This document shows, piece after piece, positions 3,050-39,685 of a DNA stretch of 42,464 nt. This DNA comes from Candidatus Parcubacteria bacterium. GTDB lineage: Bacteria > Patescibacteriota > Microgenomatia > Levybacterales > GWA1-39-11. Below the pieces are notes generated by a model that saw nothing but the letters and a program-made list of their open reading frames with translations, made no database searches and was not told where the DNA came from. Location: NCBI GenBank assembly GCA_003599595.1, contig QZIP01000022.1:1-42464 (forward strand), read 5' to 3'. How positions within the stretch are numbered: the first letter of the stretch is position 1; each line of letters starts with the position of its first letter. The translations under genes were made by a program, and so were the position numbers.

Positions 3050-3360
3050 CACAATCCCCAGGTTCGAATTCGGTTTCCGGTATAAAATTTCTTGAAGCTA
3101 ACAAAAAACGTCTGAAAATTTAGGCTCGAACCCTTCGATAAGTATACACTGAGTAAAATCGAAGTGCTCAGGGCTATAGCTAGAAAATCTTGCTTTGAAG
3201 GGCAGAATTGGAGGTTTTTAAAAACCATGGAGACCGATGTTTTGTAGATTTTGATCTTCCTGAATTATGCTGTTCAAAGCGCCTTTCGAAGTTGTCAGTA
3301 TAACCAACATATGTCTTGTTATCTTTTAGGCTTTGAAGAATATAAACATAATACATTGTT

Positions 3361-5076: not shown

Positions 5077-5136
5077 AATATTTGATCTATTTTGTATCAG
5101 TTAATGTAAATTAGTGTTTATTTCTGTCGCTTTTTG

Positions 5137-5207
5137 AGCGGGATACCAGAATCGAACTGGCTTCTCCACCTTGGAAGGGTGGCATACTACCGGTGTACTA
5201 ATCCCGC
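5137..5207 (-). tRNA. tRNA-Gly (TCC)
   Basis: GCGGGATTAGTACACCGGTAGTATGCCACCCTTCCAAGGTGGAGAAGCCAGTTCGATTCTGGTATCCCGCT; paired acceptor, anticodon stem CCACC/GGTGG, anticodon TCC. Confidence 0.93.
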
Positions 5208-5241
5208 ATAACTCTATCCCAGGCGGGGAAGAGAGCTATTC

Positions 5242-5297
5242 TCCGTCAAAAACAAGTATTTTGGCGGACCCGCTTAAATGCATTAGCTTTTAGCGGG
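5242..5297 (-). repeat. Two tandem hairpins downstream of a GIY-YIG ORF
   Basis: TCCGTCAAAA..ATTTTGGCGGA (5242-5268) and CCCGCTTAAATGCATTAGCTTTTAGCGGG (5269-5297). Confidence 0.75.
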
Positions 5298-5317
5298 TAC
5301 CACTAAACTACCACCGC
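5298..5317 (-). repeat. Partial tRNA-Gly(GCC)-like 5' fragment
   Basis: Minus strand GCGGTGGTAGTTTAGTGGTA matches 18/20 of nucleotides 1-20 of the tRNA at 39611. Confidence 0.75.
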
Positions 5318-5583
5318 ATGTCTTTCAAGTAATTTTCTAATCTTCTTTTTAAATATCCTCTACCAAAGCCTGTTTTTAATTGTAATTCTCTTTTCAAAGC
5401 ATCTGTTTTATTTAAACATGCCTCGTAGTAAATTAAAGATAGTCTATCAAATTTTTTTGTTGTTTTGACCTCTTTATTTATATGATCCTTATATCTATTT
5501 TTTAAATCTTCACATGAACCGATATAAAATTCATGCTTTATGCCTTCTGACTGACAAAGTAAAACATAAACATAATAAAACAT
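5308..5583 (-). CDS. Small GIY-YIG family protein
   Basis: MFYYVYVLLCQ..HEFYIGSCEDLKNRYKDHIN..LIYYEACLNKTDALKREL; stop codon lies inside the partial tRNA fragment. Confidence 0.85.
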   Translation of the reverse strand: MFYYVYVLLCQSEGIKHEFYIGSCEDLKNRYKDHINKEVKTTKKFDRLSLIYYEACLNKTDALKRELQLKTGFGRGYLKRRLENYLKDMRW

Positions 5584-5600
5584 AATCCATTCTTCACCTT

Positions 5601-5664
5601 GCCCAACAAAAGGACTTTTAGTCCATTTTGACGGGCCCGCCTAAATGTCATAGCTTTTGGCGGG
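5601..5664 (-). repeat. Two tandem hairpins upstream of a GIY-YIG ORF
   Basis: GCCCAACAAAAGGAC..GTCCATTTTGACGGGC and CCCGCCTAAATGTCATAGCTTTTGGCGGG; the second closely matches the hairpin at 5269-5297. Confidence 0.75.
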
Positions 5665-5701
5665 GAAGGGTGGCATACTACCGGTGTACTAATCCCGCAT
5701 A
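5664..5701 (-). repeat. Duplicated 5' half of tRNA-Gly(TCC), ending at the anticodon
   Basis: 38-bp exact direct repeat of 5173-5210 (GGAAGGGTGGCATACTACCGGTGTACTAATCCCGCATA). Confidence 0.95.
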
Positions 5702-5721
5702 TTTACTCTCAACGAGCCTTG

Positions 5722-5795
5722 TCGGGGACAGAGGACTTGAACCTCCGGCCTCGCGGTCCCAAACCGCGCGCTCTAGCCAACTGAGCTAGTCCCCG
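5722..5795 (-). tRNA. tRNA-Pro (TGG)
   Basis: CGGGGACTAGCTCAGTTGGCTAGAGCGCGCGGTTTGGGACCGCG...GGTTCAAGTCCTCTGTCCCCGA; anticodon loop TTTGGGA. Confidence 0.93.
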
Positions 5796-9282: not shown

Positions 9283-9411
9283 CTTGCCAAAGTGTGCCTG
9301 GGGCGGGACTTCCTTCGACTATGCTCAGGATAAACTTCTCGTCCCTTACCCACTTCTGCAAACTCAGTACATTTTACACTGAGCTTGCCAAAGTGTGCCT
9401 GGGGCGGGACT
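9283..9411. repeat. 28-bp direct repeats of the tRNA-Leu 3' end flanking a 73-bp CTCAG-type insert
   Basis: CTTGCCAAAGTGTGCCTGGGGCGGGACT at 9283-9310 and 9384-9411; insert contains TTCGACTATGCTCAGG and CTCAGT..ACTGAG. Confidence 0.93.
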
Positions 9412-9476
9412 CGAACCCGCATGACTTGCGCCACACGCTCTTAAGGCGTGCGTGTATACCATTCCACCACCCAGGC
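9396..9476 (-). tRNA. tRNA-Leu (TAA)
   Basis: GCCTGGGTGGTGGAATGGTATACACGCACGCCTTAAGAGCGTGTGGCGCAAGTCATGCGGGTTCGAGTCCCGCCCCAGGCA; loop CTTAAGA. Confidence 0.93.
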
Positions 9477-9503
9477 ATTATTAATCTTCTGTAACCTTCT
9501 CTG

Positions 9504-9770
9504 TTATATATAATCTATACTCTCCAATATTAATTTTAACTGTTGCCTTAATAGTCTTTTACCTTCAGTAGTCTTTAAAAATTTTTCTCTTCTTAAAGCA
9601 TCTCCCTTTTCAATATAAGCTTCATAATGAATTAATTCAACTGGTCTAAATCTCATCGTACTCTTACACTTTCCATCCTTATGCTGTTTAATTCTAGATC
9701 TTAAATTTCCACTACTACCTGTATATAGCTTATTATTTATTAGTTTTAATATGTAAACATAGTAAAACAT
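9504..9770 (-). CDS. Small GIY-YIG family protein
   Basis: MFYYVYILKLINNKLYTGSSGNLRSRIKQHKDGKCKSTMRFRPVELIHYEAYIEKGDALRREKFLK. Residues upstream of this Met in the ORF track come from hairpins and a tRNA fragment. Confidence 0.88.
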   Translation of the reverse strand: MFYYVYILKLINNKLYTGSSGNLRSRIKQHKDGKCKSTMRFRPVELIHYEAYIEKGDALRREKFLKTTEGKRLLRQQLKLILESIDYI

Positions 9771-9780
9771 ACGTGGATAC

Positions 9781-9817
9781 CCTGTCATCCGACAGGGCCA
9801 TATCGAATGATATGGCC
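9781..9817 (-). repeat. Two tandem hairpins upstream of a GIY-YIG ORF
   Basis: CCTGTC-ATCC-GACAGG (9781-9796) and GGCCATATC-GAAT-GATATGGCC (9796-9817). Confidence 0.85.
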
Positions 9818-9834
9818 ATTCCACCACCCAGGCA
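9816..9834 (-). repeat. Partial 5' end of tRNA-Leu(TAA)
   Basis: 19-bp exact copy of 9459-9477 (tRNA nucleotides 1-18 plus one flanking base). Confidence 0.9.
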
Positions 9835-39237: not shown

Positions 39238-39525
39238 ATGTTTTACGTTTATATATTGTTGAGCAAAAGAAATAACAAGTTTTATATTGGATTTACAAAA
39301 GATTTAAAGAGAAGGAGAAAAGAACACTCAAATGGACTAGTTGAATCAACTAAAAATAGAAGACCATTACTATTAATATATTATGAGGCGTATTTGAAAA
39401 CAGAAGATGCTCAAGCAAGAGAAAAATTTTTCAAAACAACCAAAGGCAAAATGCAATTAAGAAAACAATTAAATAATTCCCTTTCGGAAAACACACCAGA
39501 TTTGTTTTGTCCCAAACTATGTTAA
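39238..39525 (+). CDS. Small GIY-YIG family protein
   Basis: MFYVYILLSKRNNKFYIGFTKDLKRRRKEHSNGLVESTKNRRPLLLIYYEAYLKTEDAQAREKFFKTTKGK; may start at 39217. Confidence 0.88.
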   Translation: MFYVYILLSKRNNKFYIGFTKDLKRRRKEHSNGLVESTKNRRPLLLIYYEAYLKTEDAQAREKFFKTTKGKMQLRKQLNNSLSENTPDLFCPKLC

Positions 39526-39545
39526 CGGTGGTAGTTCAAGGGTAG
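39526..39545 (+). repeat. Partial 5' end of tRNA-Gly(GCC)
   Basis: CGGTGGTAGTTCAAGGGTAG versus CGGTGGTAGTTCAGGGGTAG in the tRNA at 39611; abuts the GIY-YIG stop codon. Confidence 0.88.
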
Positions 39546-39568
39546 CCGCCAAAATACTTGTTTTTGGC
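39546..39568 (+). repeat. Hairpin shared with 5242-5268
   Basis: CCGCCAAAATACTTGTTTTTGGC; minus strand of 5242-5268 reads TCCGCCAAAATACTTGTTTTTGACGGA. Confidence 0.85.
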
Positions 39569-39583
39569 AAAGAACGCAAAACA

Positions 39584-39610
39584 ATATATTATGCTTATAT
39601 TCTAAAAAAC
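39584..39610 (+). pseudogene. Relic of a GIY-YIG start fused to tRNA-Gly(GCC)
   Basis: ATA TAT TAT GCT TAT ATT CTA AAA AAC = (I)YYAYILKN, matching MYYVYIL-type starts; ends at the base before tRNA G1. Confidence 0.65.

Positions 39611-39685
<75 letters not shown>

Follow-up and report, generated by a model that had tools for sequence, protein, structure and literature searches.

Why should an intact tRNA gene be accompanied by a partial copy of itself, with a nuclease gene lodged between the two? The question is raised by a tRNA-Leu(taa) locus on the minus strand of the window, by which we mean the whole 42,464-nucleotide stretch of DNA analyzed here. In our reading, the locus likely belongs to a large family of small, selfish homing elements with a GIY-YIG nuclease, which break tRNA genes but also leave a working copy behind or bring one with them. 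Cutting, homing, mobility and selection for the rescue copy are all inferred, there being no cleavage, homing or transcript data. What is established at the sequence level is the adjacency of nuclease and tRNA genes, the partial tRNA copies (hereafter relics) and their hairpins, a split native tRNA with a different tRNA inside it, presence and absence in relatives, the matching of nuclease lineages to targets, and tandem arrays.

The tRNA-Leu locus of the window

Read along the minus strand, positions 9283-9834 begin with tRNA-Leu nucleotides 1-18 and two hairpins. A degenerate stretch then continues the copy, followed by a GIY-YIG ORF, the intact tRNA-Leu and finally a repeat of its 3' end. 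An earlier note had claimed the 18-nt copy, the two hairpins, the ORF and the intact tRNA in this order, and all of these parts are present; the 3' copy is an addition to that layout. The 5' relic, taken with one preceding T, spans 9816..9834 (-). Its exact 18-nt match, GCCTGGGTGGTGGAATGG at 9816-9833, occurs in the window only there and in the intact tRNA. Hairpin 1 (GGCCATATCATTCGATATGGCC, 9796..9817, minus strand) lies in the D-loop of the relic and has a perfect 9-bp stem, and hairpin 2 (CCCTGTCGGATGACAGGG, about 9780..9797, minus strand) is recognized by sequence and fold. A search of the whole 1.4-Mb genome with three mismatches permitted recovers hairpin 1 a single time, and the idea that the palindromes are a dispersed repeat of this genome was rejected on that evidence.

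The earlier note placed the breakpoint in the D-loop after GG, and here it needs correction. The sequence 3' of the hairpins, TATCCACGTATG at 9768..9779 (-), agrees with tRNA nucleotides 19-30, TATACACGCACG, at 9 of 12 positions and runs into the start of the ORF. Because of this resemblance the copy probably does not end in the D-loop; more likely, the relic extends to about nucleotide 30 and its D-loop is interrupted by the hairpins, a layout shared with the other loci.

The GIY-YIG ORF (about 9504..9770, minus strand) specifies 88 aa comprising the catalytic domain only (PF01541, E 1.1e-15) and is separated by 27 bp from the intact tRNA-Leu(taa) at 9395..9476 (-), which is detected by both ARAGORN and Rfam (RF00005, 59.7 bits). 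The 3' copy stands about 85 bp past the intact gene and could be a 3' relic: it repeats tRNA nucleotides 66-82 at 9294-9310 together with 11 bp of flanking sequence down to 9283 (feature 9283..9310, minus strand). As the relic sequences equal the working copy in nucleotides 1-18 and in the 17 nucleotides of the 3' end, it cannot be told which copy is older. A replacement is indistinguishable from a native copy here, and the locus is grouped with those whose relic and tRNA are near-identical.

As a side observation, the repeated tRNA 3' end with its 11-bp flank brackets, within 9283-9394, a stretch with the palindrome-like CCTGAGCATAGTCGAAGG; akin TCGAAGG/CTCAGG palindromes adjoin several other elements (such as L001 and L110).

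A minimal, free-standing GIY-YIG protein

Membership of the GIY-YIG superfamily is secure, the PF01541 score being 58.1 bits against a cut-off of 22.6, and the motif residues Y6, Y16, G18, R26, H30 and E62 are invariant in 12 relatives. The AlphaFold2 model of the 88-aa protein has a pLDDT of 90.6. By sequence (E 2.6e-5) and by fold the nearest solved structure is the UPF0213 protein 1zg2, with Slx1 next and weaker. UPF0213 and other minimal GIY-YIG proteins likewise consist of the catalytic domain only; to our knowledge, no tRNA adjacency has been noted for UPF0213 proteins. Recognition of DNA structure is one conceivable way in which so small a protein could choose a tRNA gene. The earlier claim that this protein is clearly unlike the one encoded at 5308-5583 held, with about 40% identity between them.

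The ORF is free-standing in the sense that it lies outside any intron: the Rfam scan of the window found no intron and no group I (RF00028) match. A group I intron with a GIY-YIG ORF was accordingly rejected for the window, as the scan matched no catalytic intron RNA there. Between the relic and tRNA-Leu there is no integrase, the GIY-YIG gene being the only substantial ORF on the coding strand; an element of the tRNA-restoring type with a tyrosine integrase was rejected for the window on this account.

Association of small GIY-YIG genes with tRNAs and their relics

The earlier note had suggested a shared tRNA-targeting layout, to be checked by a scan for small GIY-YIG ORFs beside partial tRNA copies and refuted if no enrichment was found. 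The enrichment is strong, and the idea of a shared layout is supported: small GIY-YIG genes are enriched at tRNAs with relics of the same isotype, across phyla. Our scan covered sampled genomes rather than all CPR, and its controls were other-isotype tRNAs, the reverse strand and the distance background, not shuffled gene positions.

Adjacency was assessed in 80 stretches of up to 20 kb each around GIY-YIG matches in 40 Levybacterales relatives. Of 106 small GIY-YIG genes in these stretches, a tRNA lies no more than 250 bp upstream in 41 cases and no more than 250 bp downstream in 46, and these nearby tRNAs are on the strand of the GIY-YIG gene in 86 of 87 cases. The density of tRNAs in this range is 1.55 (upstream) and 1.74 (downstream) per kb, as opposed to mostly 0.05-0.3 beyond 1.5 kb; same-strand tRNAs within 250 bp thus stand about tenfold above background.

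For the relic test, 206 distinct small GIY-YIG genes from the relatives' loci and from loci of named genomes were classed. A 5' copy of the gene's own tRNA precedes the nuclease gene in 41 of 62 genes with a tRNA only downstream, and a 3' copy lies beyond the nuclease gene in 13 of 54 with a tRNA only upstream. The crosswise arrangements (a 5' copy with an upstream tRNA, or the reverse) were absent among the classed genes. Controls with other-isotype tRNAs gave 3.0% relics for the upstream-type genes, which precede their tRNA, and 0.7% for the downstream-type genes, which follow it.

The nuclease lineages also track their tRNAs. Across 58 relic-bearing elements, the nearest protein neighbor at another locus shares the isotype in 24, against 3.7 in shuffles (maximum 12). 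In the protein tree, which rests on 80 columns and leaves many forks unresolved, Asp-, Pro-, Glu-, Tyr- and Asn-type groups span genomes and partly phyla, and each genome has many types. Part of this matching is due to vertical inheritance.

These observations bear on the simplest rival, namely that tRNA genes passively draw integration and the GIY-YIG genes are mere passengers beside tRNA pseudogenes. tRNA genes are indeed integration sites for many elements. Against this account stand the lack of an integrase between relic and tRNA at the window's Leu locus, the same-strand abutment within a few bases, the absence of crosswise relics and the match of nuclease lineages to isotype, and we regard it as very unlikely.

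A point against the preferred reading is that no same-strand tRNA occurs within 300 bp of 68 of the 206 genes; some of these lie at contig ends and many belong to one large protein clade. An Rfam search covering 20 loci where the GIY-YIG gene has no tRNA close by returned nothing except tRNAs and two group I introns, giving no support to other structured-RNA genes as targets. The two introns (RF00028; L050 1892-2090 and L057 1847-2043) are close to GIY-YIG genes of a tRNA-Met-associated clade, and could hint at a link between the tRNA elements and introns.

Hairpins in the tRNA relics

In most relics, an arm of the tRNA (D, anticodon or T) is swapped for, or split by, a perfect hairpin. The anticodon arm gives way to TCCCGAT..ATCGGGA or a similar sequence in Met, Ala, Glu and Gly relics, and to GTCGCCTNAGGCGAC in Val, Ile and Gly relics of several genomes; D-loop hairpins are seen in Leu, Gln, Asn and Glu relics, and a Pro relic has its D-arm replaced. 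A perfect stem of at least 6 bp is present in 43 of 58 relics, the mean longest stem being 5.9 bp versus 2.4 in dinucleotide shuffles.

Such hairpins raise a second rival, in which the hairpin-bearing relic is a functional RNA (an antitoxin, decoy or regulator) for the adjacent nuclease, for instance in a toxin-antitoxin or defense pair that acts on tRNA. In its favor are the prevalence of the hairpins, the Glu-type hairpins, which can be aligned over five genomes and show changes in both strands of the stem, the anticodon-like loops retained in several replaced anticodon arms, and the regulatory hairpins upstream of T4 homing endonuclease genes (PMC2988022). Against it, the relics vary by tRNA and by side, retaining 5' or 3' parts, and many are degenerate, while the covariation evidence is limited to the small Glu set. 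Hairpins also occur in relics 3' of the nuclease gene, which cannot control its translation start; hence, translation control of the nuclease cannot be their only role. On the whole, an RNA-level system appears unlikely.

Matches to a -10 promoter element are no commoner upstream of relics (41%) than upstream of working tRNAs (41%) or in shuffles (38%), and the idea of a promoter left behind at the relic was rejected. When relic, ORF and tRNA were folded together to see whether the hairpins prevent misfolding, the acceptor-stem pairing collapsed with any upstream copy, a result probably owed to the lack of a closure cost for long-range multiloops in the energy model.

Two further observations concern individual relics. 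A 17-bp palindrome, CCCCGATTAAATCGGGG, sits at the matching place in tRNA-Lys and tRNA-Arg relics of two genomes (L132 and L151), with TCAG or TCAA repeated on its two flanks, much as an insertion that duplicates a short target would leave them. At L157 (10180-10290, reverse strand), another near-complete tRNA-Asn copy with a D-loop hairpin lies past the working tRNA-Asn and forms a relic on that other side too.

Insertion into tRNA genes seen by genome comparison

The clearest view of insertion comes from tRNA-Glu(ttc) in three genomes of one genus. The gene is uninterrupted in G017. In G029, the native tRNA-Glu is split at nucleotides 36/37, in the anticodon loop; its 5' part agrees with the native gene at 34/36 positions and its 3' part at every position. 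The insert is a complete tRNA-Glu that is 54/75 identical to native, and no GIY-YIG gene is left. In G016, the native 5' end (11 recognizable nucleotides) and 3' end (25 nucleotides) flank hairpins, a GIY-YIG gene and a tRNA-Glu 62/75 identical to native. A further two-sided split occurs at a Woesebacteria tRNA-Glu (L190), where the native acceptor strands GACCCCA/TGGGGTC flank an element whose tRNA has another acceptor stem.

Spacers in tRNA clusters tell a similar story. In the conserved Leu(gag)-Val-Phe-Gly cluster, spacers of 1-26 bp in some genomes hold a nuclease gene in others, at varied positions. Between tRNA-Cys and tRNA-Leu(taa) there are 6 bp in G312, and G005 and G268 hold GIY-YIG genes there with a mutual identity of 39%. 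The tRNA-Leu relic of G005 is like the type of its own family (compare the window's tRNA-Leu), and its working tRNA encodes CCA and is a better match to other CPR families. Together with the tRNA-Glu splits that enclose a different tRNA, this indicates that the working tRNA came from outside at some loci. Presence and absence at a specific target site are therefore documented for tRNA-Glu (G016/G029/G017) and for the tRNA clusters, the window's Leu site not being included.

Most upstream-type relics hardly differ from the working tRNA of their own locus, including cases in which genomes with different tRNAs have the nuclease in common. For example, L201 and L206 have nucleases 80% identical and tRNA 5' ends 80% identical, and each relic is 100% identical to its own tRNA. 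Such identity is partly built in, the matched segments having been picked by similarity. It fits local duplication better than import of a foreign tRNA, and is also in keeping with amplification or later homogenization. Two-sided splits are seen at few loci only, and a systematic search for a native 3' part past the working tRNA came out near chance (7 of 37 with at least 6 pairs versus 4.2 expected), though it yielded a few convincing cases.

Those splits of a native tRNA that can be dated by an uninterrupted homolog lie in the anticodon loop. This is the usual place of tRNA introns, which favors a third rival: an unrecognized self-splicing or otherwise processed intron, with ORF and hairpins forming an intervening sequence in the tRNA transcript. 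A further point for it is that CPR rRNA genes hold GIY-YIG insertions matching neither group I nor group II introns (PMC11270868). Against it, a complete tRNA is present besides the relic, so that splicing is not needed; portions of the native 5' and 3' relic sequence are often missing; and Rfam finds no intron in the window. This possibility can be all but dismissed.

Spread across phyla and tandem arrays

A Glu-type protein query of named genomes returned 57 loci, 47 of them with a same-strand tRNA within 400 bp, including loci in Deltaproteobacteria/Desulfobacterota, Bacteroidota, Nitrospirota, Kiritimatiellota, Omnitrophota and Neomarinimicrobiota. The layout is likewise seen in Desulfobacterota/Myxococcota. 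Many of the relics match exactly over a long stretch (Met 1-28, Lys 1-27, Tyr 1-27, Val 1-26, Pro 26-63). In the Bacteroidota sample, 99 of 148 genomes have GIY-YIG matches; the best 30 loci include 24 with a same-strand tRNA within 400 bp, and a relic is present in 23 of 25 nuclease-tRNA pairs. The carriers include the cultured Algoriphagus winogradskyi DSM 15360 and Flavisolibacter ginsengisoli DSM 18119, and the layout therefore cannot be put down to errors of metagenome assembly. A search of plasmids with the Algoriphagus protein gave no match; phages gave weak matches, and the gene list of an annotated match that was inspected, a Rhizobium phage, is without a tRNA.

Several Bacteroidota loci are tandem arrays: three identical 323-bp units of relic and GIY-YIG gene 5' of a tRNA-Ser, three units at a tRNA-Pro, three units of GIY-YIG gene and relic 3' of a tRNA-Leu, and eight nuclease genes in another. 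Looked at locus by locus, the number of nuclease genes in the arrays at L281, L282, L283, L284 and L288 ranges from three to eight. Every one of these genes is accompanied by a tRNA relic with a hairpin, and some of the units are identical, pointing to recent amplification.

The arrays give weight to the strongest rival, segmental amplification. Here, breaks made by the nuclease would tandemly duplicate tRNA and nuclease gene, as with SegB of phage T6, and the spare tRNAs would decay to relics, no foreign tRNA being involved. Besides the tandem arrays at tRNA-Ser, tRNA-Pro and tRNA-Leu, it is favored by the usual identity of the relic to the local tRNA and by the precedent of T6, which gains 718-bp repeats of tRNA-Tyr and truncated segB via microhomology that the tRNA has at its 5' end and segB at its 3' end (PMC13096335). 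It does not account for the native tRNA-Glu that is split around a complete tRNA-Glu of another sequence, for the tRNA-Leu of G005 with its imported look, or for the fact that relics carry perfect hairpins instead of showing random decay. By a narrow margin, we are inclined against it as the account of these loci, and it may well operate alongside tRNA-breaking homing.

A model for the elements and their precedents

Under the preferred reading, tRNA-breaking homing, the element would be a minimal GIY-YIG nuclease gene of 80-90 aa with no other domain. The nuclease is predicted to cut the tRNA gene; where the split can be dated, the anticodon loop is the most likely site of the cut. The break would then be repaired from a copy carrying the element. 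A working tRNA would be kept, as a whole or partial tRNA copy arrives with the insertion or is duplicated by it. The broken native gene would persist as the relic: its 5' part if the nuclease gene precedes the working tRNA, as at the window's Leu locus, its 3' part if it follows, or both. As a guess, the relic hairpin may stop the spare copy from acting as a tRNA or from pairing with the working copy. A weakness of this model is that the working tRNA apparently still carries the target, leaving the avoidance of self-cutting unexplained. A bolder version, which we offer only as a possibility, would have these as cross-phylum home-and-rescue elements, in which a nuclease made up of the catalytic domain alone turns on an essential tRNA gene, a working tRNA is provided by the element, and the hairpin-armed relic is functional (a recognition structure, decoy or regulator) rather than debris.

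The nearest precedent is SegB of phages T4 and T6. As in the window's elements, a GIY-YIG gene sits by tRNA genes and promotes the inheritance or amplification of the tRNA region (PMC2988022, PMC13096335): T4 segB lies among tRNA genes (PMC2988022), T6 SegB is a homing endonuclease that cuts inside tRNA genes and drives amplification of tRNA-Tyr and segB (PMC13096335), and segB genes occur near tRNAs across phages (PMC13096335). By our own reading of the sequence, the SegB motif RAWTSGAAC is the complement of the conserved T-loop GTTCSAWTY. SegB differs in residing in phage genomes and in having no reported hairpin-swapped tRNA relics or split native tRNA with a replacement inside; it is also a larger protein than the 88-aa, catalytic-domain-only protein of the window.

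The order of the downstream-type tRNA elements is that of the fungal mitochondrial mORFs, in which an endonuclease ORF enters a gene together with the end of a foreign gene while the displaced native end remains as a relic, in atp6, atp9, cox2 and nad3 of Glomus and atp6 of Allomyces (PMC3630166). This arrangement, a native end persisting as a relic beside an endonuclease and a replacement, is met at the tRNA-Glu of G016 and L190, and in G029 too, with the nuclease gene lost. mORFs differ in occupying mitochondrial protein genes and being mostly LAGLIDADG, with neither tRNA nor hairpin swapping. The GIY-YIG insertions in CPR rRNA genes are alike in their hosts, in occupying structural RNA genes and in not being group I or II introns; they differ in that the paper does not mention tRNA, judges GIY-YIG to be outside homing spread and describes no gene restoration (PMC11270868). 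Fungal mitochondria also have double-hairpin elements, small tandem hairpins inserted in the loops of RNA genes. These differ in not being tied to a nuclease and a tRNA duplication, the hairpins of the window's type lying in a relic copy.

Elements of this kind in tRNA genes of bacterial chromosomes were not described in the literature searched, which excluded most subscription journals, and novelty is unproven. Free-standing GIY-YIG homing elements are known; what is likely new is their occurrence in bacterial tRNA genes, the working tRNA left or supplied, and the relic disarmed by a hairpin, with cutting, mobility and the purpose of the hairpin remaining inferred. If this reading is true, a common and apparently undescribed selfish element resides in the tRNA genes of many bacteria, cultured Bacteroidota included. 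It would overcome the problem of invading an essential gene in that a functional copy either stays or is brought along, and in this respect it would be nature's counterpart to home-and-rescue gene drives. Such elements would also account for tRNA fragments and tRNA replacement in reduced CPR genomes, and would open a path for the transfer of tRNA genes among distant bacteria. They would make available many small nucleases whose past targets can be read, since each relic records the site of the tRNA break.

Further loci in the window and its genome

The window's genome has 19 GIY-YIG matches. In addition to tRNA-Leu, tRNA 5' copies broken by hairpins occur in it at tRNA-Gly(tcc), tRNA-Gly(gcc), tRNA-Gln, tRNA-Glu and a second tRNA-Gly(tcc). 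At the tRNA-Gln locus, another nuclease gene stands after the intact tRNA, with a copy of the tRNA 3' end beyond it.

Within the window, a third GIY-YIG gene (39238..39453, plus strand, by Pfam match) lies between tRNA-Phe and the intact tRNA-Gly(gcc) (39611..39685, plus strand, ARAGORN). It is followed by a 5' relic of tRNA-Gly(gcc) (39525..39544, plus strand, by sequence), a hairpin and what is left of a decayed GIY-YIG start, no more than a few codons, so that 39238-39685 combines an intact nuclease gene with only the first codons of a deleted second one. A fourth match, at 3225-3356, has the first half of the domain only, in a 144-aa frame with no tRNA nearby, and looks degenerate.

The second locus of the same kind as tRNA-Leu is that of tRNA-Gly(tcc), on the minus strand (window 5136-5795). 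It is composite, with a 5' relic of nucleotides 1-35 (5664..5698) that has hairpins in the anticodon loop, the GIY-YIG ORF (5308..5583), a second relic resembling the tRNA-Gly(gcc) 5' end, with hairpins (5298..5317, by sequence), overlapping the end of that ORF, and the intact tRNA-Gly(tcc) (5136..5207, ARAGORN). This arrangement could represent two nested or recombined elements.
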